Below are positions 26,643-45,621 of a stretch of DNA of 64,000 nucleotides, one piece after another. The position numbers and the translations under genes are program-made. The DNA is from Salinisphaera hydrothermalis C41B8. Lineage in GTDB: Bacteria > Pseudomonadota > Gammaproteobacteria > Nevskiales > Salinisphaeraceae. Position 1 is the first letter of the stretch. The number at the start of each line of letters is the position of its first letter. The notes under the pieces are model-generated. The model searched no databases, was not told where the DNA came from, and saw only the letters and a list, made by a program, of their open reading frames with translations. The stretch lies in NCBI RefSeq assembly GCF_000732535.1, contig NZ_APNK01000017.1, positions 1 to 64,000 of the forward strand. Direction: 5' to 3'.

Positions 26643-26816
26643 TCTCGACTTCCTCGGTCTCAATCCAGGCCCGCCTTCGGGTAACACGTTCTCCGATATG
26701 GGGCCGTCGTGCATCTCATCAACCCGATTAGACGCCAACCCGGATGTCTGCATCCTGAACATATCCGGAAAGACCCGATTTCGTCGGTGAGCGTTGCATC
26801 CCAGGGGTGCCGTCGA

Positions 26817-28006: not shown

Positions 28007-29149
28007 TTAACCGAGTTCTTTTTCCTTCGAGCTCGACTCCCGACGGCCGATCTGGGAAATCGGGATCTTGGTCGCCGTGGCCTCGGCCCGATCGCCGTAC
28101 AGAACCGGCAGTTCTTCGGCGAAGTCGCCCGACAGACGCGGGCCGCGCGCCATGCTCTTCAACGCTTTCAGCGGGTGCGAGAACGTATCCTCGACCGCCG
28201 TGCCTTCATACCCGCAGTGCGCCATGCAGTTGTCGCACTTCGGATTGCGGCCCACACCGTATTTCTCCCACTCGGTGTTTTCCATCAGGCCCTTGAAGGT
28301 CTTCTCGTAACCTTCGTCGACCAACAGGTAGCAGGGCTTCTGCCAACCGAAGATGTTGTAGGTTACGTTCGACCAAGGCGTGCACTGGTAGGTCTCGTTT
28401 CCGGCCAGGAAGTCCAGATACAGCGAGGAATGATTAAGCTTCCAGTCCGAACCGCGCTCCTTACCGTGCCGGAAAATCTCGCGGAACAGGTTCTTGGCCT
28501 TGGAGCGGCCCAGGAACACGTCCTGACGCGGCGCATGCTCGTAGGAGTAGCCCGGCGACACGGTGATGCCTTCCACGCCCAGATCGGTGACGTAATCGAA
28601 GAAATCGGCGACTTCTTCCGGCACTTCACCGTCGAACAGCGTGCAGTTGATGGTTACGCGGAAGCCGCGGTCGCGCGCCATTTCGATGGCCTCGACGGCT
28701 TTCTCGAACACGCCTTCCTGGCACACCGACTCGTCGTGGCGCTCTTTCAGGCCGTCCAGATGCACCGACCAGGTGAAGTAAGGCGACGGATCGTAGTCGT
28801 CCATCTTCTTCTTCATCAGGATGGCGTTGGTGCAAAGATAGACGAACTTCTTGCGCGCCACGATGCCCTTGATGATTTCAGGCATGTCCTTGTGGATCAG
28901 CGGCTCGCCGCCTGGAATCGACACCATGGGTGCACCGCATTCGTCGACCGCGTTCAACGCGTCCTCGACGCTCATGCGCTGCTTCAGGATGTCTTTGGGG
29001 TGGTCGATCTTGCCGCAACCGGCGCACGCCAGGTTGCACTGGAACAACGGCTCCAGCATCAGCACCAGCGGGTAACGCTCACGCCGGGCGATCTTCTGGC
29101 CCATGATGTAGCGTGCCACTTTGTACTGTTGAATCAGCGGTACTGCCAT
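28007..29149 (-). CDS. hpnH: Radical SAM adenosylhopane synthase HpnH
   Basis: 380 residues. HpnH joins the 5'-deoxyadenosyl group of SAM to hopene, giving adenosylhopane, the first C35 hopanoid. The radical SAM cluster site CNLACAGC (C-x3-C-x2-C) is at residues 38-45, and a SPASM-like Cys set (CDNCMAHCGYEG) lies near 300-311. The N-terminal VPLIQQYKVARYIMGQK stretch is typical of HpnH. It has its own AT-rich upstream region (29150-29280) and a strong terminator, suggesting separate transcription inside the cluster. Confidence 0.95.
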   Translation of the reverse strand: MAVPLIQQYKVARYIMGQKIARRERYPLVLMLEPLFQCNLACAGCGKIDHPKDILKQRMSVEDALNAVDECGAPMVSIPGGEPLIHKDMPEIIKGIVARKKFVYLCTNAILMKKKMDDYDPSPYFTWSVHLDGLKERHDESVCQEGVFEKAVEAIEMARDRGFRVTINCTLFDGEVPEEVADFFDYVTDLGVEGITVSPGYSYEHAPRQDVFLGRSKAKNLFREIFRHGKERGSDWKLNHSSLYLDFLAGNETYQCTPWSNVTYNIFGWQKPCYLLVDEGYEKTFKGLMENTEWEKYGVGRNPKCDNCMAHCGYEGTAVEDTFSHPLKALKSMARGPRLSGDFAEELPVLYGDRAEATATKIPISQIGRRESSSKEKELG

Positions 29150-29280
29150 TTCGACCTCTCTTTTGGGCCCGGCGGTTGGGGGTTAGCCGATCCGAGCGCA
29201 ATAGATGTAATGCGGCGATGCCGCGAAGCACCACTGCATTATACATATGCAAATTTTGTTAAGAACTCTATTGTTGCACA

Positions 29281-30354
29281 TTAGGGTGCCGTGATCTCGG
29301 CAATTCGTGCAATCAGTTCATCTACGTCCCCATCATGCAGATCGCCCATGGTGGAGATACGAAAAATCTCATCCGTCAGGCCACCCTGCCCTGCGTAAAT
29401 GACAAAGCCAGCCGCTTTGAGATGATCATGGAGCTCATGATAAGACACTCCGGCGGGCAGCCGATACGCCCTTAAAACACACGAACTCTGTTGCGTCGAC
29501 AGCATGGCTTGGATACCGAGCTCCGCCAGTCCATCGGCGACACGCTGTGCCAACGCCCGATAATACGCGCGTCGCGCCCGCCAGCCGCCCGCACTGGCGT
29601 GTTCGGCCAGAGCGGCGGCCAGGGCATGGAAGGCCGGTATGGCCGGTGTGAACGGTGTGCCGCGCTCATCTTGCTTGTCGCAGTAGCTCACCAGATCCAG
29701 ATATAACGCCCGCGTTTTTGCCGCGGTCAGCGCGCTGCGCCGTGCGAGCACGAATGCAGCGCCGGGCGCGCCGTGCAGACATTTATTGGCGGTGGCCGCC
29801 ACCGCAGCGACCGCAGGACCGAAAGCGATCGCCTCGGCGCCGAAACTCGACACCGCATCGACCAACAACGCCACATCGGCGTCGGCACACACCGCCGCGA
29901 TCGCATCGAGGTCGTTGAGCCGGCCCGTGGTGGTTTCGTGATGCACCACCGCAACGTGGGTGAAATCCGCGCCCGCAAGCCGCTCGGCCAGAATTACCGG
30001 ATCGATGGCCTCGCCCCAGGCAAGCGACAAGGTCTCGTGGTCGATGCCGTGGACGGCCGCCATGTGCGTCATCCGCTCGCCGTAGACGCCGTTCTCGATC
30101 ACCAGCACGCGCGCGCCGTCACCCGGCATCGAGGCCATCATCGCTTCGACCGCCGCGGTGCCGGAGCCGCTCAGCACGATCGGCGCCCAGACGGCGGTAT
30201 CCAGATCATAGACCGCCGCCAGCCCATCCCGGAGGGTATCCTGCAGATCGAAGAACTCGACCTCGCGATGACACAGATCCGGCGCCGCGAGCGCGTCACG
30301 CACGGTCGGGGTTAGCGTGACCGGGCCCGGGTTAAGCAAGCGCATGCGATTCAC
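29281..30354 (-). CDS. phnW: 2-Aminoethylphosphonate transaminase-type aminotransferase
   Basis: A 357-residue class V PLP enzyme. It should convert phosphonoacetaldehyde to 2-aminoethylphosphonate. The start has the family's LLNPGPVTLTPTV motif, the cofactor Asp166 (LLVDAVSS) and the PLP Lys191 (TANKCLHG). GTG at 30354 overlaps the decarboxylase stop; ATG at 30345 is an equal alternative. PhnW enzymes usually work in AEP breakdown, but no phosphonatase gene is present, whereas the two upstream genes make its substrate, so the direction here is biosynthetic. It is the last gene of the ten-gene block. Confidence 0.88.
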   Translation of the reverse strand: MNRMRLLNPGPVTLTPTVRDALAAPDLCHREVEFFDLQDTLRDGLAAVYDLDTAVWAPIVLSGSGTAAVEAMMASMPGDGARVLVIENGVYGERMTHMAAVHGIDHETLSLAWGEAIDPVILAERLAGADFTHVAVVHHETTTGRLNDLDAIAAVCADADVALLVDAVSSFGAEAIAFGPAVAAVAATANKCLHGAPGAAFVLARRSALTAAKTRALYLDLVSYCDKQDERGTPFTPAIPAFHALAAALAEHASAGGWRARRAYYRALAQRVADGLAELGIQAMLSTQQSSCVLRAYRLPAGVSYHELHDHLKAAGFVIYAGQGGLTDEIFRISTMGDLHDGDVDELIARIAEITAP

Positions 30355-31505
30355 GATCCGGCCCCGATATGCGCCATCAGGCGCTGCTTGACTTCCACCG
30401 GCGTGGCCGCGGGCCGCGGCAGGTTGGCCTTATCGGTGCCCGGCGCGATATGCAGATGAGAGAACGCCGGTCCTTGCGAGCTGCCGCCGAGCATCTGATC
30501 GATCACCGTACGATCATGCCCCTCATACGTCGTGCGATAACCCGCTGCGGCCGCGATGCCGGCAAACGACAGGCCCGACGACACCGTGGCCTGGCCGCCG
30601 GTGGATTCATGCATGCCGTTGTCGAGCAACAGATGATGCAGATTGGTCGGCCCGTAGGCCGCCAGTGTCGACATCGCGCCCAGCCGCATCAGGGCGGCCC
30701 CATCGCCGTCGACCACGATCACGTCGAGATCGGGCCGCGCCATCGCCAGGCCGAGCCCGAGCAGCGGCGCACAGCCCATCGAACCGACCATGTACAAATG
30801 GTTGGGCCGATCGTCGATCGCATACAGCTCGCGACCGGCAAAACCGGTGGAGGCAATAATGACACTGTGTGCCGGATCGGTACGCTCAACCAGATGCGAC
30901 AGCGCCTCGCGACGCGAGACGGTCGGCTCCTTGTACGGCGCCGGGCGGAACGTGATCGCCCCGCGGCTCTGGGTCGGCGCGCTTTGGGTCTGCAGCTCGG
31001 CCGGCGCGACCGTGCCCTTCTTCATGACCAGCACATAAGGCCGACCGGTCTCGTTCATATGGGCTTCGGCCCGGGCCAACGCCTCGTCCACGGCCTCCGC
31101 ACGATCCGGGAAGATTTCCCACGGTAGATCCATGGTCTCGAGCATATCGGTCGTGATCTGGCCCATCAGCTCGTGCTGCGGCTCGTCGGCCACATCCGGC
31201 GTGCCGCGCCAGGTCACGATGAGCAGGATCGGTAGCCGGAACACCCAGTTGAGCGAGGTCAGTGGCGATACGGCGTTGCCCAGCCCGGAGTTCTGCATCA
31301 TCGCCACGGCGCGCTTGCCCGCGAGCGCCTGGCCGGCGGCCAGGGCCACGGCATCGCCCTCGTTCGCGGCCGAGACATAGGTCAGCCGTTCGCTGTCGAT
31401 CACGGTGTTGATGAACGGTGTCAGAAACGAACACGGCACCCCGGCATAGAAGTCGTAGCCATAGGCGGCCGCGCGATCGATGAAGTCGTTGGCCTGAAGG
31501 GTCAT
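30351..31505 (-). CDS. Phosphonopyruvate decarboxylase
   Basis: A 384-residue thiamine-diphosphate enzyme that decarboxylates phosphonopyruvate to phosphonoacetaldehyde and so drives the unfavourable PEP mutase reaction. The N-terminal Pyr domain has GVPCSFL and the catalytic Glu in the [11 protein letters not shown] segment (near 50). The PP domain has the TPP/Mg motif [10 protein letters not shown] ending in an LLLDNG stretch near 300. ATG at 31505 overlaps the PepM stop; a frame from 31574 adds an unrelated N-terminus. Gene order PepM-Ppd-transaminase is the classic one for aminoethylphosphonate synthesis. Confidence 0.93.
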
Positions 31506-33163
31506 GATGCAGCTTCTCCGTGTGCGAATTCGGATGCGGCGCGCAGATCGTCGAGATCGTTGACGTCCAGCCAATGCCCGGTGATGTAGATAACATCCAC
31601 GCGATGCCCGGCCGCGATGAGCTCGTTGAGCAGATCCGGTACGCCCGCGGTTTCGAATCGGCCTTCGGCGCGGAGTTTATCCAACGCCTGGCGAATCCAG
31701 ACCCGTCCCTCACCACGACTGCGCATCACGCCGATCCAGCGTCCGTTCGGCGTGCTGTCTGGTGCATTGTCCATACCGACGTGGGTCAACGCCACGGACT
31801 GGCCGAACAACGACCGGTCATCCGGCGCGCTACACCAGGCCGGGTCGCGCTGGGGCGCATCGGACCGGCGTCCCTGCGAATCCACCACCACGGTGATCTC
31901 GCCGGGCGCCTCCAGCAGGTCGGTCAGCACGTGGCGCCGGAAGATCAGGTCACCATAGACGATCAGATTGTCGTCGCCGAAATGCTCACGCGCCTTGTCC
32001 AGCGACGCCAGCTCGCCGGTGGTTTCGAAATCCGGATTCTCGACCACTTTCACGCCGGCGACATCGATGGTTTCCGGGCGATAGCCCGCTACCGCTGTGA
32101 TGTCGTGCAGCCCGTGCTGCTTAAAAACGTCGACCAAGTGACGAAGCAGCGGCTTACCGGCCACTTCGAGCATGGCCTTCGGCCGCGCCTCGGTCACCGG
32201 CTCCAGACCCTCGCCGCGCGCCGCGGCCAGCACGATAGCGCGGGTGGCCGCACCGGCATCGCCCGCATAGCGCTTCTCGGCCTCGCGCAGTTCCGGATCG
32301 CCCTGGAGACGGAAGATCTCCGACACCGGCGCGATCCGGTCCTCCACCCCGGTCAGGGTCTCGTTCTGATAAATCCTAGCCACCGTGTTCTGCATGGCGG
32401 TTACCGAGGCTCGCACCGTATGGTTGGCCCAGATCACCAGGCTGATACCCGCCGCTCGAAACACATCGGTCGGCGTCGAGTAATACTTGGTGGGCACGAT
32501 CACGAGCGGGCAGGAGCCGTCCCAGCGATCTGCGAACTTCTGAATATTGTCGAACCGCGGCGCCTTGTCGTGGATGAGGATGGCATCCGCCCCGGCCTGC
32601 TGGTAAGCCTTGGCACGCTCCAGCGCCTCGTCCACCGACCAGCCGGCAATCAGCGCCTCGACGCGGGCGACGATGCAGAAATCCGGATCGGCCTGGGCAT
32701 CCTTGCCGGCGCGGATCTTGCCGCAGAATTCGTCGACATCCGCCAGCGGCTGGCGCTCGCCGTCGATGAAGCTATTGGTCTTGGGAAACAGCTTGTCCTC
32801 GATACAGACGCCGGCCACACCGCGCGACTCGAGCTTGTTGACCAAGCGCCGCAGGTTGTTGAAATTGCCATAGCCGGTATCGCCGTCGAGCAGAATCGGC
32901 ACGTCGGTGGCATCGGCCATGAACTCGACCGTTTCCAGCACCTGGGTCCAGCTCGCCTCGTTGGAATCGCGTACACCGAACGCCGCCGAGAGCGCCAGAC
33001 CGGATGCCCAGATGCCGGCAAAGCCGGCCTCTTCGACAATACGCGCCGACAGGCCGTTGTGCGCCTCCATGATGAATTCGAGCCGGTTGGACTCGAGCAG
33101 ATCGCGCAGGGCGCGGGTCTTGGTCTTGTTCGGGGTCGTCCGGGCTTTGATATCCGCAAGCAT
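31502..33163 (-). CDS. PEP mutase fused to a nucleotidyltransferase
   Basis: 553 residues. Residues 1 to about 295 are PEP mutase, which makes the C-P bond: LDGDTGYGN (92-100) binds Mg, and the signature EDK-x5-NS is at 122-131 (Glu122, Asp123, Lys124, Asn130, Ser131), separating it from isocitrate lyase relatives. Residues about 306-553 are a nucleotidyltransferase with an [20 protein letters not shown]-loop-like signature near 313-331 and VYGDLIF (metal-binding Asp) near 417. The second domain probably activates the phosphonate with CTP, as PntC does in Treponema. The two domains catalyse the first and a late step of one pathway in one chain. It lies two bases from the upstream nucleotidyltransferase gene. 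Confidence 0.93.
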
Positions 33164-33165
33164 GG

Positions 33166-33936
33166 CTATCCGTGGTTGATTTGAAGCTGGGGCAGAATGT
33201 CGCGGACGGCGCGCTCGGCATCGACCGGATAATCGATCTCGATCCAGGGCAAGCCGGTCACGTCCGCAGGATCGAAGGCGGCGCCGTCGGCACGCATCAC
33301 CCGCTGCAGCGCGGCCTCGTAGGGCGCGTCTTCATCGGCCCGGCCGACACGCTCGCATTCCCGAACCAGTGCCTTGGCGCTGGCCGGCGACAGCCGGAAG
33401 AAGCCGACTGATTCGCCGATCGTGTCGTAAGCGAGATCGGCGGGCAGCACCTTGTCGAAGGCCACGATGCGCTCGTCGTCGAGACAGACCTTGACCGCCT
33501 CGGCATCGTCGGCGCCTACACTGCGATCCATGCCCAGAACGTCGGCAGCATCGGCCGCGAGCAATGTATCGAGCAGTCGATGATCGTAAAGCACGTCGGC
33601 GTCCATCAGCAGGACCTCGTCCCCGCCCGCCAACACATCGGCCGCCGCGAGCACGCTCTTCGCGCTGCCTTGGCGAAACGCCGGGTTGTGGGCGGTGGTG
33701 ACCGTCATCTCGGGCGCCACCTCGGGCACGAGCGCGCCCAGCGCCTGTTCGATCTGCATCGCTTCGAAGCCGACCACCACCGTGAGCCGGTCAATGCCCG
33801 CTGCGGTCAGCCGGCGCAGATGACGCTCGAGCAAACTGGCCTTACCGAACGGCAGCAGGCATTTCGGGCCGCCACCGGTGATGTCGTCGAGTCGACGGCC
33901 CATACCGGCCGCCAGCAGAACTGCATGCATAAGCAC
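33166..33936 (-). CDS. Stand-alone sugar/choline-phosphate-type nucleotidyltransferase
   Basis: A 256-residue NTP transferase. The signature [19 protein letters not shown] is at residues 7-25 and the metal site [10 protein letters not shown] near 109-118. The overall look is of the LicC-like phosphocholine cytidylyltransferase group. It sits directly before the PepM fusion, which already has a nucleotidyltransferase domain, so the operon encodes two. One may activate aminoethylphosphonate and the other a second head group, or one may be redundant. The start is ATG at 33936 or 33930. Confidence 0.85.
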
Positions 33937-33951
33937 TCGTCTTTCGATGAT

Positions 33952-34950
33952 TTATGAATGTCGAGGGGTCGCCGCGGGCGAACGGCGCGGGCGTTCCAGC
34001 AGGCGGCCTTCGGCCCACTGCCAGGCCACCAGCCCGGGGATGCCCAGGCCGAGCTCGCGCACGCGCTTGACCAGCGACAAGGCCAGCCCGATCTGCGGAT
34101 TAAGCCCGATCAGCCCAGCCAGGAGCACGAAACCGCCCTCCTGAACACCGAGCGCACCGGGAATGGCAAACGCCGCACCGCGAATTGCCTGGCCCAGCGC
34201 CTCCAGCATGACGGCATCCGCCAAGCCGACCGGGTGGCCGAGAAAATAAAGCCCGAGCCAGACCTCGCCGATGCCCGCCACCCAGCCAATCCAGCGCCAG
34301 CCCAGCGCACGCACGGCGGTCCACGGCCGGGCATAAATCGCGCTGATCGCGGCGTCGAGCGACTGTGCGCCGCCCACGAAATCCAGCCACGCGCGACCGC
34401 CGCCGATACGCTTGACCAGCACCGCTAACGCGCCGAACAGGCCGCCGCGCTGCAGCCTGTAGAACAACGCCAGCAGCGCCAGCATCACGCCGATGCCCAC
34501 CGCCACACCCCAGGCGATATCCGGCTTATCGATCAGGATCAGCAACAGCACCAGCCCGAGCATGCCGAACAGCATCTGCGTAAGAGCGGCCAGGGTGATG
34601 TCGACAACCACGGTGGCTCCAGTCTCGGCTGCGGCCAGCCCCTGTTTGATCAGCAACCGGGCCTTGGCGATATCACCGCCGATCTGGGCGACGGGTAACA
34701 GGCCGTTGATCGACTCGCCGATCCAACGCGCCCAGACGATGCGCGGCAGCGCTGGCCGCGGTGGTCGATACAAAATTCGCCAGGCGTGGCTATCGATCAC
34801 CAGCGGCAACAGATGCCACGCCGTGACCGCGGCCAGCCCCCAGCCCGCCACCGACAGCGCGTGACCGATCGCGGGCAGACCCTGCCAGGCGAGTACGGCC
34901 GTAAACAGGGCCACGCCGGTCAGCAGCATGAGGGCAGCGGTGCGTTTCAC
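33952..34950 (-). CDS. hpnL: Hopanoid-associated membrane protein HpnL
   Basis: A 332-residue integral membrane protein with about eight helices, of the lysylphosphatidylglycerol-synthase transmembrane (UPF0104) family. HpnL members accompany hopanoid genes; their relatives are lipid flippases, so movement of a hopanoid or phosphonolipid across the inner membrane is a fair guess. Motifs include GESINGLLPVAQIGGDIAK near 78-96 and FAIPGALGVQEGGF near 261-274, both conserved in the family. It is 11 bases after the oxygenase gene and 15 before the nucleotidyltransferase gene. Confidence 0.85.
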   Translation of the reverse strand: MKRTAALMLLTGVALFTAVLAWQGLPAIGHALSVAGWGLAAVTAWHLLPLVIDSHAWRILYRPPRPALPRIVWARWIGESINGLLPVAQIGGDIAKARLLIKQGLAAAETGATVVVDITLAALTQMLFGMLGLVLLLILIDKPDIAWGVAVGIGVMLALLALFYRLQRGGLFGALAVLVKRIGGGRAWLDFVGGAQSLDAAISAIYARPWTAVRALGWRWIGWVAGIGEVWLGLYFLGHPVGLADAVMLEALGQAIRGAAFAIPGALGVQEGGFVLLAGLIGLNPQIGLALSLVKRVRELGLGIPGLVAWQWAEGRLLERPRRSPAATPRHS

Positions 34951-34961
34951 GGGTCGGGCGG

Positions 34962-35717
34962 CTAGCGCTGATCGCGCTTGAACACCTGTTTGAAACCGAA
35001 ATACGCGATCGAATCCTTCATGTTGGAGACGAAACGCTGCCAGCCACTCATGTGGGTGTCGGTGACGTACTCGAAAGTCAACGAAATACGGCGTTCGTTA
35101 TCGCCCAGCGGCGTGATGCGATGCCAGACCTCGTCGCCGTTGAACAGACACATCGCGCCCGGACGCAGATTGCGCGCATCGCCCACCGTCTCGCGGTTCT
35201 CGTCGTTCTTGAACAGCTCGAACTCAAGCTGGGCCGACGATTCGTCGACCACGCCCAGCAGCAACGTATAGCGCTTACCGGCGTAGTACGACGTATCGAA
35301 ATGCCAGCCGATGTGATCGCCCGGCTCGGTATAGAAATACAGCGCGTAGGCATGCGGATCGGATTCGGGACAAACCTGCAGAGTCTCGCCCGTCATCCGC
35401 TCAAGCCAGGCGATGAAACGCGGGTTGCGATAGAGCGCGGGGATTTCGGGGGCGAGCTCGTCCAGCGCATAGCGCGACACGCTGCCCCCTTTCTTGTGCC
35501 GCGGAATATAGTTGCGGTGTACGGCCTCGGCCAGTTCCGGAATACGTGCCTGGAACCGCGTCGTGGTTTCCACGGGCAGAAATTCATCGAGAAAGATGAA
35601 TTCGTTATCCGCCTCGAAGCGCTGCTTCAAAACGGGCGTATCCAGATCATCGACGAACGCCGCCTCATCGGCGGCGTCGGCATCGGCAATCATTTCTTCG
35701 ACGCTGGCGCGACTCAT
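34962..35717 (-). CDS. 2OG-Fe(II) oxygenase-like protein
   Basis: 251 residues. A jelly-roll dioxygenase pattern is visible: His139-x-Asp141 (GWHFDTSYY) and His199 (EVWHRITPL) form the likely iron triad, and Arg209 or Arg210 (NERRISLTF) the likely 2-oxoglutarate contact. About 45 acidic, probably disordered residues precede the domain. AGGAGACC upstream supports ATG at 35717 over a start at 35738. I do not recognise a named family member. By context it could hydroxylate the phosphonate (as the AEP dioxygenase PhnY does), a fatty acyl chain or the hopanoid side chain. Confidence 0.75.
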   Translation of the reverse strand: MSRASVEEMIADADAADEAAFVDDLDTPVLKQRFEADNEFIFLDEFLPVETTTRFQARIPELAEAVHRNYIPRHKKGGSVSRYALDELAPEIPALYRNPRFIAWLERMTGETLQVCPESDPHAYALYFYTEPGDHIGWHFDTSYYAGKRYTLLLGVVDESSAQLEFELFKNDENRETVGDARNLRPGAMCLFNGDEVWHRITPLGDNERRISLTFEYVTDTHMSGWQRFVSNMKDSIAYFGFKQVFKRDQR

Positions 35718-35767
35718 CGAGGTCTCCTGGTCATCCATCTAGGGCGCGAACCGGCCCGTCGCGGGGC

Positions 35768-36817: not shown

Positions 36818-37335
36818 GACTTGCTCTGATCCATGGCGCCCGGGCGGCTCGCCGGGCGCGGGTCGGCCACTCGCGTCCAGGTTGTGGTTTTGCCCAACGC
36901 CCGGATACCGACGTAGCCACGCAACTTCAGGTGATTGGGGTCGGCGAGCCAAAGATCGCAGTCGAACCACTTCCCCCGGTCGGGATCGTAGACGCGGCCG
37001 TTTTCCCAGCGCGCGTGATCGTTGTCTAATACATGATAATCCAGATCCTTGATCATGCGCAGCCCAATCATCGGCCGATCACGCTTGCCCGGGTCGGGAT
37101 TGTGGCGATCGACGAGCGGCTGACCCCCCATGCCGTGCGGGTCGTCCGTCGGGTAGCGGGGCTGCTTTAGCCATACGATACGGGCGACAAAATCGCCGCG
37201 ATCATCGACGACATGAATGACTGCGCCGCCTTTCTCGGTGCGCCAGAATCCGGTGATCGCGTCGGGTGCCGGCGCTTCGGCCAAGACGGCCATCGACGCC
37301 AGCGCCAAGGCGACGAAGGCCGCCAGGCGTGGCAT
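36814..37335 (-). CDS. DUF2147 periplasmic protein
   Basis: 173 residues with a signal peptide (about 1-21) and a DUF2147 domain, recognisable by the start ITGFWRTEKGGAVIHV, GLRMIKDLDY in the middle and the RGYVGIRALGKTTTW end. DUF2147 proteins are small periplasmic beta-barrel-like proteins of unknown job, often near lipid or fatty-acid genes. The ATG shares a base with the hpnA stop (TGATG), and its own stop overlaps the catalase-like gene, so all three are coupled. Confidence 0.85.
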   Translation of the reverse strand: MPRLAAFVALALASMAVLAEAPAPDAITGFWRTEKGGAVIHVVDDRGDFVARIVWLKQPRYPTDDPHGMGGQPLVDRHNPDPGKRDRPMIGLRMIKDLDYHVLDNDHARWENGRVYDPDRGKWFDCDLWLADPNHLKLRGYVGIRALGKTTTWTRVADPRPASRPGAMDQSKS

Positions 37336-38336
37336 CACGGCTTTTTGCCGACCGGCAGGTAGCGATGCGCGTAATACCAGGCCACGGCATCGGCCAGCGC
37401 ATCGCGCGCGGGGCGTGCCCGATAGCCCAATTCGGCCGCCGCACGCGCGTGGGAAAAGAACATGCGTTTCTTGGCCAGCTTCACGCCGTCGACGGTCACC
37501 TTCGGCGGCCGGCCTGTGACGCGCGCCACCGCTTCCGCGGCATGCGCGATCGGCATCACGAGGTTATGCGGCAACTTCACGCGCGGCGGCGGTCGATCGA
37601 CGATCTCGGCCACCAGCGCGAGAATTTCGGCCAACGTCATGTCGGTGCCGCCCAGCACATAGCGCCGACCGGGCGTGCCATGCGCATGGGCCAGCAGATG
37701 ACCGCGCGCTACATCGTCGACATGCGCGACATTCAAGCCGGTGTCCACGAAGGCCGGCATTCGCCCTGCCGCGGCTTCGAGCACCATCTGGCCGGTCGGC
37801 GTCGGCTTGTGGTCGCGGGGGCCGATCGGTGCCGACGGGTTCACGATCACGATATCGAGCCCGTCGGCGGCGTATTCGCGCGCGACTTCTTCGGCCAGGA
37901 ACTTGGATCGCTTGTAATGGCCGATCATGTCGTCCAGACCGACCGGCGTATCCTCGTCGCCGGGCGAGCCGTCCTTGGGAATGCCGAGGGTCGCGACACT
38001 CGAGGTATACACCACCCGCGAGATGCCGGCGCTACGCGCGGCCTCGCAGATACGGCGCGTACCCTCGACGTTATTCTCATAGAGCTCGCCGGGGTCGGCC
38101 GCCCAGAGACGATAATCGGCCGCGACATGGAACACCGCGTCGCAATCTTGCATGGCCTCGACCAGCGCCGCCGTATTCGATAGATCGGCTTCGACGAACT
38201 CCAGATCCAGCCCTTCCAGCGCGGTCAGATCGCTGCTCGGTCGGCGGGTCGCCCGCACCGTCCAGCCGTCGCGCAGCGCCGCGCGGGCCACTGCACTACC
38301 AACGAATCCCGTGGCTCCGGTCACCAGCGCGCGCAT
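37335..38336 (-). CDS. hpnA: Hopanoid-associated sugar epimerase HpnA
   Basis: A 333-residue extended short-chain dehydrogenase with the NAD loop TGATGFVG (7-14), the Ser-Tyr-Lys catalytic set (TSSVAT near 117 and HYKRSK near 141-146) and the HpnA-like NVAHVDDVARGH stretch near 204-215. HpnA is widespread in hopanoid clusters, but its reaction is not settled. ATG at 38336 follows the CDP-alcohol phosphotransferase stop by three bases. Confidence 0.9.
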   Translation of the reverse strand: MRALVTGATGFVGSAVARAALRDGWTVRATRRPSSDLTALEGLDLEFVEADLSNTAALVEAMQDCDAVFHVAADYRLWAADPGELYENNVEGTRRICEAARSAGISRVVYTSSVATLGIPKDGSPGDEDTPVGLDDMIGHYKRSKFLAEEVAREYAADGLDIVIVNPSAPIGPRDHKPTPTGQMVLEAAAGRMPAFVDTGLNVAHVDDVARGHLLAHAHGTPGRRYVLGGTDMTLAEILALVAEIVDRPPPRVKLPHNLVMPIAHAAEAVARVTGRPPKVTVDGVKLAKKRMFFSHARAAAELGYRARPARDALADAVAWYYAHRYLPVGKKP

Positions 38337-38339
38337 CAA

Positions 38340-38990
38340 TCAACCCCTCGTCGAACGCGTGCGCAGCACGCGGAAATACCAGCCTAACCAGATCGCGAAC
38401 GCCGGCGCACCGATGAACGAGAGCACCAGAAACGCTTCGCGTATATCGAAGATGGTAACCAGCGGGAACAGATAGAGCACGTCTTCGATCTCGAACAAGC
38501 CGGCCGAGGGCAGCTTGGCCCCCGCCTTGCCCAGTTCATCTTCCATAACCATATGCAGCCAGAAAATGAATGCGACCGAGGCGCCCGCCACCAAGCCCAT
38601 CAAGGGCGCCCAGGCCCCCAACGGACCATGAATCAGACCGTAGCCCAGCGCGGCGAACAGCAGCGTATGGATGATCGCGTCACAGGCCAGATCGTAGAGA
38701 TGCCCGAAACGGCTCGACGCGCCGGACATGCGAGCCAGTTCGCCGTCGGTATGATCGACGAAATTCGATAGCGCGAACACGAACGCACCGATATTGGCTT
38801 CCACGAGACTTCCGTGGGCCAGACACCAGGCCGAAACGAGCCCCAGCACGAGCCGGACAGTGGTCAGATGATTGGGGCGCGCCGCAGTGCCGTCGAGCGG
38901 CCGGACCAGACGACGTGCCAGGCGTGCGTCCAGCGGGCGCGACGAATCCGCGCCCTGATCTTTGCGTGCCGAATCGATCGGTTCAGGCAT
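38340..38990 (-). CDS. CDP-alcohol phosphotransferase-family membrane enzyme
   Basis: 216 residues with about five or six helices. The full family motif is present: Asp82-Gly83, Ala86-Arg87, Gly96, Asp100 and Asp104, that is DG-x2-AR-x8-G-x3-D-x3-D. This family moves a phospho-alcohol or phosphonate from a CDP/CMP carrier to an acceptor alcohol. As first gene of the block that also makes and activates aminoethylphosphonate, it is the likely final transferase, putting CMP-activated AEP on diacylglycerol or another lipid alcohol. AAGGAA upstream supports ATG at 38990. The acceptor is unknown. Confidence 0.85.
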   Translation of the reverse strand: MPEPIDSARKDQGADSSRPLDARLARRLVRPLDGTAARPNHLTTVRLVLGLVSAWCLAHGSLVEANIGAFVFALSNFVDHTDGELARMSGASSRFGHLYDLACDAIIHTLLFAALGYGLIHGPLGAWAPLMGLVAGASVAFIFWLHMVMEDELGKAGAKLPSAGLFEIEDVLYLFPLVTIFDIREAFLVLSFIGAPAFAIWLGWYFRVLRTRSTRG

Positions 38991-39184: not shown

Positions 39185-41806
39185 CTACTCCCGCAATATA
39201 CGAAACAGTGCGGGCACGACAATAAGGGTGGTTATGAGAACTGCAAGCATGCCGATCGTCAGCAGTTGGCCCATGCTGGCCGTGCCGGCGTGACGCGAGA
39301 AAGCCAGGCTGCCGAAACCGGCCATGGTGGTCAGTGACGAGAGGATGACGGCGCGTGCCGTCGAGGTGCCCAGGAACGGTCGATGATGTTCGCGCTGTCG
39401 CAGCCGGTGAACGACATGAATGCCACTGTCCACGCCCACCCCCAGCAACAACGGCAATGCAATCACGTTGGCGAAATTGAACGGGATATCCAGGACCACG
39501 GTCGCCGCCGCCAGAATCAGCCCGGAGAGAGCCAGCGGCACCAGCACACGAATGGTATCGACGACGCTGCGCAGCAAAACCAGCAGGAACAGCGAGATGA
39601 AAATGGCGGCATAAATGAAGGCATGCATGAAGGCGCTGGACACCGTATGTCCGGCCGAGAGCTCCAGAACCGGCGCGCCGGTGATGTGCGGCGCCGCTTG
39701 GCGCACGCTCGCCACGAACTTGCGCATAGCCGATTCGTGATCGAGGTTGCCGCTTGGCGACACCTCCACGCGAAACTGGCCCTGGGTGCCGATCCAGCGC
39801 TTGCGCAGACTTTCCGGCAGATTCTTGAGCGTAATGCGCGAGGCATTCATCGCATCCGCGAGCCCGTCGATCTGCCGGGGCAGCCCGGACAGCACGCGAT
39901 CGTGAAGGCTGGCCAGAATTTGTTTCTGCGCGGCGGGCTTTTGTTGTGCGAACCAGTCACGCCAAGCCGATAACGACTGCGCCAGATCGCGCGCCGCGGC
40001 CGCATCGTCGCCGGTGTCGCTTTTGCGATAAGCCGTCAGATGCTGAGCGAAATCGGCAATGGCCTGCTTGCGGGCGCCGAAATCCGCGTGCTTGCTCATA
40101 TCGGGCGGCGTCACCGCGAGCGTCAACGCCAGATCGCCGATGATCGACAGTTTGGCGGTCTGGTTACCGGGCACGAAATTCGCGACCGTCATCGCACCCG
40201 AGACGTGCGGCTGCTTGGCGATACGAGCAGCCAAACCCTTGGCCTGCGCCAATGTCGGTCGCGTCGTCACGAGCGTCAGGGGCGAATGTTCACTATGCGC
40301 CAGCAGATCGCGATAGGTCTTGACCGCTTCGTCGTTGGGATTTTTCAGATCCAGCGTACTCGGGTCGAAGCGAATGAACGGCAATGCCATCACGCAGGCC
40401 AGGACGGCCACCGCCGACAGCGTCCAGATCAGGCGCTGGGCACGACGACCGATAAACGGCGCCCAGCGGCTCGTTGTCGTATCGGTGCTCGGCACCCAGG
40501 GCTTCATCAGCGAGATGGCGGCCGGCAGGAAGGTCAGGCTCACCACCAGGCTGATGAACATCCCCACACCCGAAATCAGCCCGAGTTCGGCCACGCCGGA
40601 ATACGAGGTCGGAATAAAGGCAAAGAAACCGGCGGCCGTGGTCAGCGCGCAGAGCGCGAGCGATAGCCCGACGTCGGAAATCGCCGACGTCAACGCATGG
40701 CGTACGCCGGCCGCGCGCCCGGCCACGCGCTCACCCAGCTCGGCCAGCGCCTCGCGATAACGCAAACAGACGTGAATCGCGTAGTCGATGCCAAGCCCGA
40801 TATAGAGCACCGCAAAGGCGATGGAAATCAGGTTCAGGCGACCGACCGCGAGGGCGGCGAAGGTGGCCGTGCCGACCAGGCCGGCCACCAGGCTGGCGAG
40901 CGACGCGCCCATCAGCGCCCACGAACGCAAGCCCAGGTACAGAATGATGCCGACGGCCAGGAACGCGAGCGACGCGCCCCAGGCCGCGCCATGGGTCACA
41001 CTGGCCAGCTCTTCGTCGGACAGCGCCACCTCGCCGGTCTGGCGTACGCGCACGCCGTGCGCCGCGTCGAGATTCAGCCGCTTGGCGGCATCGCGGATCG
41101 CCTGCATCGGCTTTTGGGCCGGCAGCAAGGCGCCATAATTCAGCTTCGGCTGCACGATGATGAAGCGCTGATCGGACACGCCCGGCTGATCGCCGCCGAT
41201 CAATTGTTGCCAGGACAGGCGGTTGTAGCGTCCTTCCCGACTGGCGTCGAAGGTGTGCGCCAACTCGCTGAACACGGGGGCCAGATTCATGTCGACCGGC
41301 GCATCCGGCGCCATGGCCTTGTCCAGCATGTCGAAAAACGTCGGCAACGTCGGATCCGCCGACAGCCGGCCCAGGAACGGTTGGATTTGTGTCAACCGCG
41401 ACGACAGCGACTGCAGTTTGTCCTTCGACAGATAGAGAAAACCGTTCTTGGCAAAAAACTGCCCACCGCCCGGCTCGTATACCGATGGAAACAGATTCGG
41501 CTGCTGCCGCAATGCCTTGGCCAGCTTGTCCGTTGCGGCGCCCGCGATATCCGGCGTCGCCCCGTCGACCACGATCACGAGATTGTCGTTATAGATCGGG
41601 AACGCGTGCTGGTAGGCGATGTAGGTCTTTCGCCACGGGACGTGGCTGCTGATCAGATTGGAATCGTCGGTGTCCATCGACAGATGGGTCATCGAATACC
41701 AGGCGCCGCCCAACGTGATGACGATGCCGACCGCGATTACCCAGATCGCGTGACGCGTCATCAACTCGATCCATGCCGCCAGTGCACGCGATAGCATGCG
41801 CGTCAT
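39185..41806 (-). CDS. hpnN: Hopanoid transporter HpnN (RND superfamily)
   Basis: 873 residues with 12 membrane helices in the RND/MMPL layout: one helix, a periplasmic loop (about 45-270), five helices, then a repeat with the second loop at about 470-720. HpnN carries hopanoids to the outer membrane in Rhodopseudomonas and is needed for normal growth there. The conserved GLGIDYAIHV (helix 4) and GVGVDSGIHVVHR (helix 10) segments hold the Asp residues used for proton coupling. Its ATG overlaps the hpnG stop (ATGA). Confidence 0.93.
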   Translation of the reverse strand: MTRMLSRALAAWIELMTRHAIWVIAVGIVITLGGAWYSMTHLSMDTDDSNLISSHVPWRKTYIAYQHAFPIYNDNLVIVVDGATPDIAGAATDKLAKALRQQPNLFPSVYEPGGGQFFAKNGFLYLSKDKLQSLSSRLTQIQPFLGRLSADPTLPTFFDMLDKAMAPDAPVDMNLAPVFSELAHTFDASREGRYNRLSWQQLIGGDQPGVSDQRFIIVQPKLNYGALLPAQKPMQAIRDAAKRLNLDAAHGVRVRQTGEVALSDEELASVTHGAAWGASLAFLAVGIILYLGLRSWALMGASLASLVAGLVGTATFAALAVGRLNLISIAFAVLYIGLGIDYAIHVCLRYREALAELGERVAGRAAGVRHALTSAISDVGLSLALCALTTAAGFFAFIPTSYSGVAELGLISGVGMFISLVVSLTFLPAAISLMKPWVPSTDTTTSRWAPFIGRRAQRLIWTLSAVAVLACVMALPFIRFDPSTLDLKNPNDEAVKTYRDLLAHSEHSPLTLVTTRPTLAQAKGLAARIAKQPHVSGAMTVANFVPGNQTAKLSIIGDLALTLAVTPPDMSKHADFGARKQAIADFAQHLTAYRKSDTGDDAAAARDLAQSLSAWRDWFAQQKPAAQKQILASLHDRVLSGLPRQIDGLADAMNASRITLKNLPESLRKRWIGTQGQFRVEVSPSGNLDHESAMRKFVASVRQAAPHITGAPVLELSAGHTVSSAFMHAFIYAAIFISLFLLVLLRSVVDTIRVLVPLALSGLILAAATVVLDIPFNFANVIALPLLLGVGVDSGIHVVHRLRQREHHRPFLGTSTARAVILSSLTTMAGFGSLAFSRHAGTASMGQLLTIGMLAVLITTLIVVPALFRILRE

Positions 41807-42528
41807 GTCGTCTCCTCGCCACGAACAATAAGGGCCGCATCGGCCAAGGTCATACGCGCGGCGCGAAACGCCACGGCCAGATTCTTCAACGACCGGAGCT
41901 GGGCATGCACCGACGACGGCCGCCCGGCCAGTGCGCCCATCAACGCGGCCGGCCGCAGACGACCGTCGGCATCCATCGCCGCCCGCGCCACCGGCGGCAA
42001 CACCATGGCGGCATCATCAATGATTGCGCGCACGCAAACGAAACCCAGCCCGCGTTCGGCCGCCACGGCCGCGATCGCCGCGCTTTCCATGTCGCAGGCG
42101 ATGGCTTCCGTGGCCTCGTGCAGCGCGCGCTTGGCGGCCGCGTCGACCACCAGCCCGGGCGTTTCCGTCAGACGCTGTTCGAACACCTGATGCATCGGGG
42201 CCAGGGCCGTGGCCAGCGCGGTTCGCCAGACGGGATCGGTCGACCATTCCCGGTCGTCGGCACCGCGTACGGTCGACGCCAGAATCAGCGCCCCGGGGTC
42301 GACGCCCGGCGCCAGCGCGGCCGCCGTGCCCCAGCTCATCAGCGTGGTCACGCCTTCATCAGCTAACGTGGCGGCAGCCTGTTCGGCGCGCTCGGCGCCC
42401 ATGCCCGACAACAGCAGGCGTGCGCCGCCGGGCAGCCGGGCACGGCCGCGCGGACGCAGCCGTGCCAGGGCGCGCACCTCGCCCGGCAACGCGGCAACGA
42501 TGCCGAGCCGATCGATGGCAAGACTCAA
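41803..42528 (-). CDS. hpnG: Adenosylhopane nucleosidase/phosphorylase HpnG
   Basis: A 241-residue purine-nucleoside-phosphorylase-fold protein. HpnG removes adenine from adenosylhopane (made by HpnH) to give the ribosyl hopane that leads to bacteriohopanetetrol. Visible parts are GIVAALPGEVRAL at the start, LMSWGTAAAL near 62-71, and the nucleoside-binding CDMESAAIAAVA segment near 145-156. It lies 63 bases after the cyclase gene and overlaps hpnN. Confidence 0.9.
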   Translation of the reverse strand: MSLAIDRLGIVAALPGEVRALARLRPRGRARLPGGARLLLSGMGAERAEQAAATLADEGVTTLMSWGTAAALAPGVDPGALILASTVRGADDREWSTDPVWRTALATALAPMHQVFEQRLTETPGLVVDAAAKRALHEATEAIACDMESAAIAAVAAERGLGFVCVRAIIDDAAMVLPPVARAAMDADGRLRPAALMGALAGRPSSVHAQLRSLKNLAVAFRAARMTLADAALIVRGEETT

Positions 42529-42591
42529 ATCAACGTCTCGGCGGGCCCGAGAACACGGCGCCCGCCCGTACGATCCATCCGGGGCATGGCT

Positions 42592-45500
42592 TTAATCGGT
42601 ACTCGCCGCCTCGGCGCCCGATGCCGGCACACCGTGCACGTTGCGATAACGCGCCAGCGCCCAGAGCGGAAAGTAACGGGTGTAACCGTGGTATTTGAGA
42701 TAGAACACGCGCGGGAAACCGGGCGCGGTATGTTCCGGATCGTGCCAGGCGCCGTCATCGCCCTGGGCGTCGATCAGCCAGGCCGCGCCGCGGGCCAGGG
42801 CGGGCGTATCGCGCTCGCCGGCCGCCATCAGCCCGAGCATCGCCCAAGCCGTCTGGAAGCTGGTGGAGACATCGGAGCGACCGCGCGGCGGGTCCCAATA
42901 GGTGCCGTTATCCTCCCCCCAACTGCCGTCGGTACGCTGCATGCCGCGCAGATAGGCCACCGCACGCTGAATCCAGTCCTGGCTCATGTCTTCGCCGAGC
43001 GCTTCGAGCGCCATCAGCACCGACCAGGTGCCATAGATGTAGTTCGTGCCCCAACGCCCGAACCATGAGCCATCGGCTTCCTGTTCACGCTTGAGATACG
43101 CCATCGCGCGCTGGATGAACGGCCCGTCTTCCGGCCGCTGTAACAACCCGGTCAGCGTGAGCACGCGCGCGGTGACGTCCGCCGTCGGCGGATCCAGCAA
43201 CGCGCCGTGATCGGCGAACGGGATCTCGTTGAGATATTCGTGGTTGTTGTCGGAATCGAAGGCGGCCACGCCCCCGTTCGACGACTGCATGCCGACCAGC
43301 CAGTTGGTCGCGCGCGTGATCGCCCGGCCGTAGGTGGCGCCGTCGCCGGTGTTGTACATCGCCCAGGCGATCACGGCGGTGTCGTCCAGGTCGGGATAGT
43401 GATCGTTGGCGTACTGGAACGGCCAACCGCCGCCCGGCAGGTCGGGGTGATCGCGCTTCCAGTCGCCCGGGCCATCCAGCACTTGGCGTTCAGCTAGCCA
43501 GTCGAGACCGGCACGCACGACCGGTGTATCACCCTCGCCCGCGGCTTCCTGCAGCGCAAGCGCGGCCAGGCCGGTATCCCAGACCGGGGATACGCACGGC
43601 TGGACGTTGGCCATGTCGCCGTGATCGAACACGAGGTCGTCGATCGCCTGGCGCGTGTTGGCGCGGTAGGGATGATCGGCCGGATAGCCGAGCTCGCCCA
43701 GCGCTTCGTAAACGTTGACCATGGCCGGGAAGATCGCACCGATACCGTCGGTGCCGTTGAGGCGCTCGATGATCCAGTTTTCGGCGGTCTTGATCGCGCG
43801 CTTGCGCACAAATTTGGGAATCAGCGGCTCGAAGCTTCGGCCGACGAGATCCAGCCCCTTGAATACGCGCTGCAGTGTGTTCTGGGCCGGCACGAAATCG
43901 CGCTGCTGCTCCGGCGGAATCGTAAACAGCTCGCGGATGTTCACCCCAGCCGGATTACGCGCCATCGTGCGCAGGCTGGTGAGGATGAACAACGGCACCA
44001 TCACCGTGCGCGACCAGTAGCTCACCTTCGACAGATGGAAGGGCGACGCCTGCGGCATCAGCATCACTTCGACCGGAATGAACGGCACGGCACGCCACGG
44101 CACCTGCCCGAACTGGGCCAGCGCGATGAGCGTGAAGACGTTGACCTGGCCGGCCCCGCCGCGGGCCAGAATCGCTTGGCGGGCGTGCACCATATGCGGC
44201 GCATCGACATCGTCGCCGGCGAGCTTGAGCGCGTAGTAGCACTTCACCGAGCACGATAGGTCGAGATCGCCGCCGTAGTACAGCGGCCAGCCGCCGTGGG
44301 CGGCCTGCTTGTAGCGAATATAGTTCGCGACGCGCGCCTGCAGGGCGGTATCGACATCGCCGACGAAGTGCATCATGAGGATGTATTCCGCCGGAATCGT
44401 GCAGTCGGCCTCGCATTCGTAGCGCCAGTGGCCGTCCGGATTCTGATCGGCGAACAGGCGTGTCTGCGCCGCGTCGATAGCCTCGGCCAACCCCGCCGGC
44501 TGCGCGGCGCTGGCTACACCGGGGCGCGGCATTTCGACGATGTCGTTGATCGGCGCGGCCGGATCGTCGGCCAGTTTCGGCGTCAGCGCCGGCAGATCGT
44601 GCGCGGTCATGTGGAACAGATGACGCAGACGATCGTCGTCGGCCACCGCCAGATTGGTCGTCAGTACCGTGGCCTGCACGCTGCGGCGCGATACCTTCAC
44701 CTGCGAACCATCGGTGAAATACGGGTTCGCCTGGATCTTGCGCAGCGTCAGCAGCGCCAGACCGATCGCCCACAGGCAGAACCGGCGCATGCCCTTCTGA
44801 TGACCGGGAATGCGCAACGTGAACTCAAGCGCGTTGCGCAGATGCCCGGTCGCCAGGCCAATCAGTTCGGACAGACCGGCCGCGAACGCTTCGTCGGCAG
44901 GACGCTTGCCGAGATCCGACAGATCGAAGCCGTGGCGCGCGAACACGTCGCGCGGCAACCAACACACCCCGCGCGACTGATCGGCCCAGATATCCTTGAG
45001 GATATTGGTCATCTGCAGACCCTGGCCGAACGACACGGCCAGACGATTGAGCTCGGCGTCGTGCGCGCCCATGGCCGGCTCGTGGTCGGTGAACATGGCG
45101 GACAGCATCTCGCCCACCACGCCGGCCACGAAATAGCAGTAGCGATCCAGATGCGCCAGCGTGGGAAGCCCCTCGGCGCTGGCGGCGCGCTCGTATTCCG
45201 GCATGCCTTCGCACATGATGCGGACACAGCGCGCGACCGCCGCGCGCTGGGCCGGGCGCAGATCGCGCATCACGGTCAGCACGTCTTCGGTATGCGCGAC
45301 CAGACGCCGCTCGGCGTCGAGCGTGGCGCTGGCCAGCTGCGGCGCCAGGCGCTGGCCGAAGTCGGCGCCGCCTTCGCCGGTTTCGACCACTTGCACGAAC
45401 TCGGCGTGCCAGTTCGCCTTGGTTTCGTAGTCGAGCTCCGCGTCGTCCTCGATGGTGTCGGCGATACGGCACAGCAGATAAGCGTTGCCGACGGCCACCC

Positions 45501-45621
45501 GCAGCGCCTCGGGCAGCTCGGGAATCGTCAGCGCGAATGTGCGCGAAACATGCGGCAGGATCTCGTCCTGAAAGGCCAGCGCGCGCCGACCGGAATCCGT
45601 CTGCATTGGGGCTTGTGACAT
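42592..45621 (-). CDS. Squalene synthase-squalene-hopene cyclase fusion
   Basis: 1009 residues in one frame. Residues 1 to about 345 are a squalene synthase: first Asp-rich motif DTIEDD (55-60), YCYFVAGVVG (161-170) and second motif NILKDIWAD (206-214, Asp210 and Asp214). Residues about 380-1000 are a squalene-hopene cyclase with repeated QW motifs (for example DGHWRY near 396) and the proton-donating DLDD at 744-747. A linker of about 35 residues (345-380), Pro/Ala-rich, joins them. The protein could take farnesyl diphosphate to hopene with squalene never leaving. It uses a true squalene synthase instead of the three-protein HpnCDE route. ATG at 45621 is divergent from ispA, which supplies its substrate. 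Confidence 0.95.
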   Translation of the reverse strand: MSQAPMQTDSGRRALAFQDEILPHVSRTFALTIPELPEALRVAVGNAYLLCRIADTIEDDAELDYETKANWHAEFVQVVETGEGGADFGQRLAPQLASATLDAERRLVAHTEDVLTVMRDLRPAQRAAVARCVRIMCEGMPEYERAASAEGLPTLAHLDRYCYFVAGVVGEMLSAMFTDHEPAMGAHDAELNRLAVSFGQGLQMTNILKDIWADQSRGVCWLPRDVFARHGFDLSDLGKRPADEAFAAGLSELIGLATGHLRNALEFTLRIPGHQKGMRRFCLWAIGLALLTLRKIQANPYFTDGSQVKVSRRSVQATVLTTNLAVADDDRLRHLFHMTAHDLPALTPKLADDPAAPINDIVEMPRPGVASAAQPAGLAEAIDAAQTRLFADQNPDGHWRYECEADCTIPAEYILMMHFVGDVDTALQARVANYIRYKQAAHGGWPLYYGGDLDLSCSVKCYYALKLAGDDVDAPHMVHARQAILARGGAGQVNVFTLIALAQFGQVPWRAVPFIPVEVMLMPQASPFHLSKVSYWSRTVMVPLFILTSLRTMARNPAGVNIRELFTIPPEQQRDFVPAQNTLQRVFKGLDLVGRSFEPLIPKFVRKRAIKTAENWIIERLNGTDGIGAIFPAMVNVYEALGELGYPADHPYRANTRQAIDDLVFDHGDMANVQPCVSPVWDTGLAALALQEAAGEGDTPVVRAGLDWLAERQVLDGPGDWKRDHPDLPGGGWPFQYANDHYPDLDDTAVIAWAMYNTGDGATYGRAITRATNWLVGMQSSNGGVAAFDSDNNHEYLNEIPFADHGALLDPPTADVTARVLTLTGLLQRPEDGPFIQRAMAYLKREQEADGSWFGRWGTNYIYGTWSVLMALEALGEDMSQDWIQRAVAYLRGMQRTDGSWGEDNGTYWDPPRGRSDVSTSFQTAWAMLGLMAAGERDTPALARGAAWLIDAQGDDGAWHDPEHTAPGFPRVFYLKYHGYTRYFPLWALARYRNVHGVPASGAEAASTD

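Follow-up and report, generated by a model that had tools for sequence, protein, structure and literature searches.

Why would a complete pathway for a compound with a carbon-phosphorus (C-P) bond be encoded inside a run of hopanoid genes? The question is raised by a 64,000-nucleotide stretch of the Salinisphaera hydrothermalis C41B8 genome (hereafter the window; positions 1 to 64,000 of contig NZ_APNK01000017.1), in which a sixteen-gene run on the minus strand extends from position 45621 to position 25998, from a fused squalene synthase-squalene-hopene cyclase gene (SQS-SHC) through hpnM. Set among the hopanoid genes SQS-SHC, hpnG, hpnN, hpnA, hpnH, hpnB and hpnM is a complete phosphonate module made up of a CDP-alcohol phosphotransferase (CDP-OHP), a HalD-like 2-oxoglutarate (2OG) enzyme, hpnL, a stand-alone nucleotidyltransferase (NT), phosphoenolpyruvate (PEP) mutase fused to a second NT domain (PepM-NT), phosphonopyruvate decarboxylase (Ppd) and a 2-aminoethylphosphonate (AEP) aminotransferase. 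We propose that the locus probably makes a phosphonohopanoid, in which CMP-activated AEP, or hydroxy-AEP, would be moved onto a hopanoid alcohol. The genomic case for CDP-OHP as the enzyme joining the two pathways is strong; that its acceptor would be a hopanoid is suggested by co-occurrence, nearness and joint absence.

CDP-OHP tracks the hopanoid and phosphonate pathways together

An even sample of 369 genomes of the class was searched for CDP-OHP with a profile of 30 homologues, at a threshold (E <= 1e-20) fixed before the result was seen. Family members were found in 20 of the 369 genomes, spanning 11 family labels. SHC was present in all 20 of them and PepM over its curated cut-off in 19, the base rates of these two genes in the sample being 52 and 27 genomes, respectively (PepM matches below the cut-off in G206, G322 and G419 were not counted). 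The single CDP-OHP genome without PepM, G118, is a 75% complete assembly in which the gene lies on a 4.7-kb contig. Broken down by gene content, CDP-OHP occurred in 19 of the 21 genomes with both SHC and PepM (G273 and G439 being those without it), in 1/31 with SHC only, in 0/6 with PepM only and in 0/311 with neither; it thus behaves like an AND gate for the two pathways. Fisher tests yielded 2e-19 for the association with SHC and 1e-24 for that with PepM, values that are overstated since the kinship of the genomes is ignored; at the level of families, all 11 families with CDP-OHP fall among the 30 with SHC (4e-10, assuming about 181 families, a number estimated from labels). Best matches per genome fell into two tiers, of 267-331 and 117-203 bits. 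We note that most of the loci used for the profile lie next to PepM and that the PepM link of the upper tier is therefore partly built in, whereas the SHC link is not. Among 292 cyanobacterial genomes, CDP-OHP was found in three, all of them with SHC and one of them (G107) the centre of the search. At most 8 or 10 first-look candidates were scored per genome in the class and cyanobacterial scans, and some CDP-OHP may have been missed.

The association with SHC was also apparent with PepM held constant. A second sample consisted of the best 80 of 205 PepM-NT loci from named genomes, 68 of which proved positive for CDP-OHP: 34 within the locus itself, L045 (counted as positive because it comes from the same genome as G009) and 33 of the 45 others by a genome search in which all candidates were scored. 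SHC was present in 71 of the 80 genomes (46/50 plus 25/30, with G600 and G642 outside the 30), and CDP-OHP occurred in 67 of these 71 versus one of the nine lacking SHC. The two samples share genomes (locus L084, for instance, belongs to G449), and the two tests are not independent. More distant CDP-OHP relatives were found in the PepM loci of Ignavibacteria whose genomes lack SHC (L113 and L114; 52-65 bits), and a relative of 29% identity in that of a Bacteriovorax, likewise without SHC (L120); the scores in other PepM loci were 115-347 bits, except for L121 (86) and a second copy in L162 (78). The occurrence of such distant relatives in SHC-less hosts would suit different acceptors in different hosts.

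The two modules come apart in close relatives

An interleaving confined to this strain, which would have counted against the original prediction, is excluded, and the arrangement is more than a chance one: the run recurs in the five other CDP-OHP-bearing genomes of the genus (G001, G004, G010, G013 and, in two contigs, G009) and the interleaving is also found in other gammaproteobacteria. In a set of 61 relatives, PepM was over its cut-off in nine and CDP-OHP with an intact motif was present in the same nine, all with SHC, a gene found in 20 of the 61. G002 illustrates the hopanoid side alone: SHC, hpnG, hpnN, hpnA, DUF2147 and hpnH are present in a 20-kb stretch (L124) from which CDP-OHP, HalD, hpnL, NT, PepM, Ppd and the aminotransferase are all absent. 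The hopanoid blocks of G007 (L123) share 79-84% DNA identity with the window, and its Ppd is still an open frame of 388 codons; the aminotransferase is in fragments, PepM-NT is down to a 124-base scrap and weak CDP-OHP traces (E 0.004 and 0.05) lie between hpnN and hpnA. In the hpn locus of G014 (L042), an open CDP-OHP frame has lost three conserved motif residues and scores just below the PF01066 cut-off, and no PepM over the cut-off was found in this genome. L123 and L124 lack hpnL along with the phosphonate genes, and both keep DUF2147. These losses therefore place CDP-OHP and the cassette version of hpnL with the phosphonate module, and DUF2147 with the hopanoid genes. In the HpnL tree, the cassette proteins lie on one side of one branch with support of 59/34, which is only suggestive of a group of their own.

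Organization of the Salinisphaera locus

Genes were named by Pfam and NCBIfam searches against curated cut-offs (Table 1), and the names agree with an original prediction that had described hopanoid and phosphonate genes interleaved on one strand. That prediction had placed the run at 28007-45621; the run is real but extends further, via hpnB and hpnM, to 25998. SHC and HpnH score well over their cut-offs, and PepM, Ppd and the aminotransferase of the AEP pathway are all found, the last of them 3.5 bits short of its cut-off. With starts chosen at 38990 for CDP-OHP (the likely start of a frame open from 39098) and at 31505 for Ppd, nine of the 13 junctions from SHC to hpnH measure between -4 and 29 bases and the remaining four 63, 194, 131 and -157 bases; this last overlap likely reflects a start called too early for the 400-residue frame. 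No Pfam or NCBIfam family matches that protein, which had originally been labelled catalase-fold; its sole match in the PDB is a chain titled 'Putative uncharacterized protein', and among the PepM-NT loci it was matched solely in the genus of the window (L034, L035, L037, L038, L044, L048). SQS-SHC-like frames of about 1010-1025 residues are present too in L034-L038, L041 and L042.

Table 1. Genes of the run in the window, listed in their order from SQS-SHC to hpnL and on from the stand-alone NT to hpnM (aa, amino acids; RND, resistance-nodulation-division; SAM, S-adenosylmethionine; SDR, short-chain dehydrogenase/reductase).
Gene or product	Position	Strand	Matches and remarks
SQS-SHC fusion, 1009 aa, one frame	42592..45621	-	PF00494, PF13249, PF13243; TIGR01507 780 bits, cut-off 431
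hpnG, phosphorylase-type	41803..42528	-	TIGR03468 162.5 bits, below cut-off 187.1
hpnN, hopanoid RND transporter	39185..41806	-	TIGR03480 944 bits, over cut-off
CDP-OHP, proposed phosphonate-to-hopanoid transferase	38340..38990	-	PF01066 52 bits, cut-off 22
hpnA, sugar-epimerase-like SDR	37335..38339	-	TIGR03466 468 bits, over cut-off
DUF2147 protein	36814..37338	-	PF09917
400-aa protein	35768..36970	-	start likely further in; nearest PDB chain 3e4w
HalD/BesD-like 2OG-Fe(II) enzyme, proposed hydroxylase	34962..35738	-	PF23169
hpnL-type flippase-like membrane protein, cassette version	33952..34950	-	TIGR03476 331 bits, over cut-off; PF03706
Stand-alone NT, candidate CTP:AEP cytidylyltransferase (PntC-like)	33166..33936	-	PDB 6pd1 match
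PEP mutase fused to second NT domain (PepM-NT)	31502..33163	-	TIGR02320 390.5 bits, cut-off 319.55
Ppd	30351..31505	-	TIGR03297 434 bits, over cut-off; frame open from 31574
AEP aminotransferase	29281..30354	-	TIGR03301 357.3 bits, below cut-off 360.8
hpnH, adenosyl-hopene transferase (radical SAM)	28007..29149	-	TIGR03470 551 bits, cut-off 225
hpnB, glycosyltransferase-like	26817..27938	-	TIGR03469 401 bits
hpnM (MlaC-like)	25998..26762	-	TIGR03481 198 bits

Gene neighbourhoods in other lineages

The order CDP-OHP, HalD, hpnL, NT, PepM-NT, Ppd and aminotransferase is conserved in Cupriavidus, Ralstonia, Trinickia, Mycetohabitans and Nevskia, in stretches where no other hpn gene was found except for one weak hpnM match in L083. 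In four Burkholderiaceae (L069, L089, L094, L110) the cassette is split, with PepM-Ppd-aminotransferase in one place and CDP-OHP-HalD-hpnL-NT in another, and the latter four therefore form a unit of their own. Other gammaproteobacteria carry the cassette within or against an hpn run, in gene orders that differ (L075, L084, L092, L105, L148, L149, L155). Present within a single hpn-phosphonate run at L075:8452-9159, L084:8397-9167 and L148:8074-8727 is a second, divergent CDP-OHP, which falls in a separate clade of the tree and perhaps serves another acceptor or donor. Three stretches of about 20 kb each (L147, L158, L211) hold CDP-OHP close to SHC, hpnA and one or both of hpnG and hpnN, and do not include PepM; L144, L205 and L206 resemble these but are short contigs. 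Weak hpnA labels (33-37% identity) beside lower-tier CDP-OHP in L151 and L208-L210 were set aside, since other SDR proteins might be behind them, and a tally of 44 of 84 with an hpn neighbour was for this reason not used.

HpnI is found close to CDP-OHP in Nostocales, an assignment that held when tested against the cut-off for L056 (370 bits, cut-off 310); similar matches were obtained in L049, L057-L059 and L202. L057 also encodes a B12-binding radical SAM protein (L057:7599-9245) whose initial HpnJ label was rejected (62 bits against a cut-off of 577.6), its nearest family being the PhpK P-methyltransferases (80 bits, cut-off 600). Such proteins, which might modify the phosphonate or the hopanoid further, also occur close to CDP-OHP elsewhere in the Nostocales (L197-L200, L202).

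The candidate joining enzyme and the chemistry of the head group

Enzymes of the PF01066 superfamily share the motif DxxDGxxAR(x8)GxxxDxxxD. CDP-OHP of the window has this catalytic motif in full, and residues D115, D118, G119, A122, R123, G132, D136 and D140 are invariant in 30/30 aligned homologues. Its AlphaFold model (predicted local distance difference test score, pLDDT, 85.4) adopts the CDP-alcohol phosphotransferase (CDP-AP) fold, the top Foldseek match being AF2299 (4o6m; E 1.5e-5, probability 1.00, query template-modelling (TM) score 0.63). Context labels are clustered in the CDP-OHP tree, and the G014 relic sits on a long branch (1.7).

On the phosphonate side, the PepM signature EDKxxxxxNS is present in the window and in 86/86 locus frames, four of which are second copies of one genome, as are four frames in each of the two NT counts below. 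NT domains are recognized by the signature LAAGxGxR, the Arg of which is kept in 70/70 stand-alone NT frames and missing from that position in 87/87 PepM-fused domains. As the best PDB match of the stand-alone NT is PntC (6pd1, E 8.2e-9, residues 1-253) and as it is this protein that retains the Arg, CMP-AEP formation is tentatively assigned to it; the missing Arg makes the fused domain a less likely maker of CMP-AEP.

The product originally described as 2OG oxygenase-like is indeed a 2OG enzyme and, more exactly, a HalD/BesD relative. Halogenases of the HalD/BesD type have lost the Asp of the HxD iron site. H146, D148, H206 and R217 are found in 33/33 aligned frames of the HalD-like enzyme, and its intact HxD...H site disfavours halogenation; by the same rule, the site appears to be of the hydroxylase type. 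Given the conservation of such an enzyme in the module, the head group may be a hydroxylated AEP. Some loci carry a PhyH enzyme instead of, or besides, the HalD-like one. That of L088 and L100 is nearest to the methylphosphonate hydroxylase PhnY (198-212 bits, cut-off 500), in keeping with a hydroxylated phosphonate, yet the genomes of both are without CDP-OHP.

Proposed pathway and alternatives

In the pathway that we propose, PepM would convert PEP to phosphonopyruvate, Ppd would yield phosphonoacetaldehyde and the aminotransferase AEP, all in line with the established chemistry of these families. The HalD-like 2OG enzyme might hydroxylate AEP or the finished lipid, and the stand-alone PntC-like NT would make CMP-AEP. 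The membrane-bound CDP-OHP would then transfer the phosphonate from CMP to the hydroxyl of a hopanoid, for example bacteriohopanetetrol (BHT), the hopanoid alcohol presumably being built by SHC, HpnH, HpnG and later steps. Finally, the cassette HpnL could flip the product, and HpnN and HpnM move it outward. The mass calculated for AEP on BHT (C37H68NO6P) is 654.4857 as [M+H]+, and that for the hydroxy-AEP form 670.4806. Viewed more broadly, we lean slightly towards a widespread and so far unrecognized class of hopanoids with a C-P head group, AEP or hydroxy-AEP, in ester linkage to the polyol side chain, made by a dedicated CDP-OHP family with HpnL as its flippase, which would range over gammaproteobacteria, Burkholderiales, metagenome-assembled genomes (MAGs) titled Rhodospirillales, and Nostocales.

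Two products had originally been envisaged, an AEP lipid working alongside hopanoids and AEP placed on a hopanoid alcohol. The comparison of genomes speaks for the second as the putative product, because CDP-OHP tracks SHC even with PepM held constant, because it adjoins hpn genes in some loci with PepM elsewhere, and because it is missing or broken jointly with PepM. The first remains the main rival: by analogy with the eukaryotic choline and ethanolamine phosphotransferases that use CDP-choline, CDP-OHP would move the phosphonate of CMP-AEP to diacylglycerol, giving an AEP glycerophosphonolipid useful only in hopanoid-rich membranes. Profile matches of CDP-OHP to CEPT1 and CHPT1 (8gyw, 5.9e-6; 9uet, 4.6e-5) speak for such a lipid, as do the Cupriavidus cassette, unlinked to other hpn genes, and a 2018 paper on Nostoc that puts a like cassette among phosphonolipids and whose abbreviations include DAG and AAG (PMC5987646). 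Diacylglycerol is universal, however, and this explanation does not itself predict SHC in 20/20 CDP-OHP genomes or the 67/71 versus 1/9 split, nor the nearness of CDP-OHP to SHC, hpnG, hpnN and HpnI; we consider it possible but rather unlikely. A reverse geometry, in which CDP-OHP joins CDP-diacylglycerol (CDP-DAG) to a hopanoid polyol to give a phosphatidyl-hopanoid, AEP being used elsewhere, would agree with the best structural neighbours of CDP-OHP, AF2299 and the phosphatidylinositol-phosphate (PIP) synthases, among which 6h59 is a structure in complex with CDP-DAG. The near-strict dependence of CDP-OHP on PepM (19/20) and its absence or breakage along with PepM in G002, G007 and G014 make this geometry very improbable. 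According to the PntC paper (PMC6697681), phosphonoglycans and phosphonolipids are the predicted purpose of most bacterial phosphonate clusters, and the mixed genes might merely share an operon while the phosphonate decorates a glycan or a protein. We hold this to be highly unlikely, as family scans named 0/16 genes of the run as a polysaccharide polymerase or LicD member over cut-off, and as the module possesses a membrane CDP-OHP and tracks SHC across wide taxa. Lastly, SHC and the cassette might share lineages by co-inheritance with no functional link, as could be argued from the Burkholderiaceae cassettes unlinked to SHC and from statistics that ignore kinship; the spread over 11 family labels of one class, over Cyanobacteria and over MAGs titled Rhodospirillales, the shared absence inside a single genus and the physical interleaving with hpn genes render this quite improbable.

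Several observations nonetheless weigh against phosphonohopanoid synthesis. Co-occurrence does not show the substrate, and the Fisher values exaggerate the association, given the kinship of the sampled genomes and the overlap between samples. A similar pattern would arise if CDP-OHP made an AEP-diacylglycerol for which only hopanoid membranes have a need, the nearest solved structures of CDP-OHP are glycerolipid enzymes, and the cassette of Cupriavidus and relatives lies away from other hpn genes. PepM-NT and SHC occur without CDP-OHP in the genomes of L088, L095, L100 and L118, and likewise in G439 of the class sample; in L088 (G109), NT, PepM-NT, Ppd, the aminotransferase and the PhnY-like enzyme accompany a full hpn run, and the genome yielded nothing from the CDP-OHP family at E <= 1e-20. 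L074 has CDP-OHP, and hpnH in its locus, but no SHC, a gene that it may lack only through assembly. L121, whose genome has SHC, is positive only at 90 bits (E 2.4e-25), the count without it being 66/71. G304, with a lower-tier CDP-OHP and SHC, has no HpnH over the cut-off, a misfit for a C35 acceptor. As a test of such an acceptor HpnH was set aside for its little power, being over its cut-off in 47 of the 50 SHC genomes tested; G157, G304 and G372 are those without it, and G304 is the one that carries CDP-OHP.

Other features of the window

Mevalonate-pathway genes, which are unusual for a gammaproteobacterium, adjoin hpnM on the opposite strand (20789-25027, plus strand). They include an in-frame fusion of an HMG-CoA reductase and a mevalonate kinase, both over cut-off, and a kinase frame nearest to phosphomevalonate kinase (117 bits, below the cut-off of 165.7). 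An ATPase of an EhuA-type ectoine/hydroxyectoine ATP-binding cassette (ABC) transporter, over cut-off in residues 251-500 of a 509-residue frame, maps at 14125-15654 on the minus strand and lends slight support to the original remark that an osmotically stressed organism might use hopanoids and phosphonates to tune its membrane.

Significance and comparison with known systems

Hopanoids are among the foremost molecular fossils, and their head groups influence lipid location and the resistance of membranes to stress. If the proposal holds, a hopanoid with a zwitterionic phosphonate as its head group would be phospholipid-like, and C-P bonds would enter a lipid class that is traced geologically, in molecules that could escape hopanoid methods not tuned to them. 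A flippase function of the cassette HpnL would, in addition, give a testable role to an hpn gene whose function is not established. Among titles and abstract starts in the open-access library searched, we found no report of a phosphonate hopanoid or of a CDP-alcohol enzyme associated with hopanoids, and no paper joining the SHC-PepM linkage with the phosphonolipid cassette.

The window locus resembles known hpn clusters in its SHC, HpnH, HpnN, HpnA, HpnB, HpnM and HpnL, all over cut-off, and in an HpnG just below, and differs from them in adding a full C-P pathway and CDP-OHP. A study of hopanoids in alphaproteobacteria, published in 2025, gives the functions of hpnA, hpnB and hpnL as not established, and its main text contains the word 'phosphonate' 0 times (PMC12583986). 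With Pnt clusters the locus shares a PepM fused to a MobA-like NT, Ppd, the aminotransferase and a PntC-like stand-alone NT, but its module is embedded in hopanoid genes; the PntC paper shows NT activation to be common, and its main text contains 'hopanoid' and 'CDP-alcohol' 0 times (PMC6697681). Closer still in content is a cluster of lichen Nostoc and Burkholderia consisting of a CDP-alcohol phosphatidyltransferase, an OG-Fe(II) enzyme, an NTP transferase, pepM, ppd, AEPT and hpnL, which differs in having been classed under phosphonolipids in the 2018 paper, where 'hopanoid' and 'hopene' occur 0 times in the main text (PMC5987646). From the hopanoid side, a 2021 survey of Acetobacteraceae genomes linked PepM of Roseomonas to a hopene cyclase gene, the likeness to our locus, and suggested an 'undiscovered terpene-phosphonate'; in the available part of its text, the survey presents no phosphotransferase, mechanism or co-occurrence test (PMC8776678). 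That vague idea is here given a specific candidate enzyme, a putative reaction and exact masses. An AEP head group on a membrane lipid is itself known from ceramide aminoethylphosphonate, which is reported to occur in Bdellovibrio (PMC9174665), the difference being that the acceptor there is a ceramide, whereas here it would be a hopanoid.

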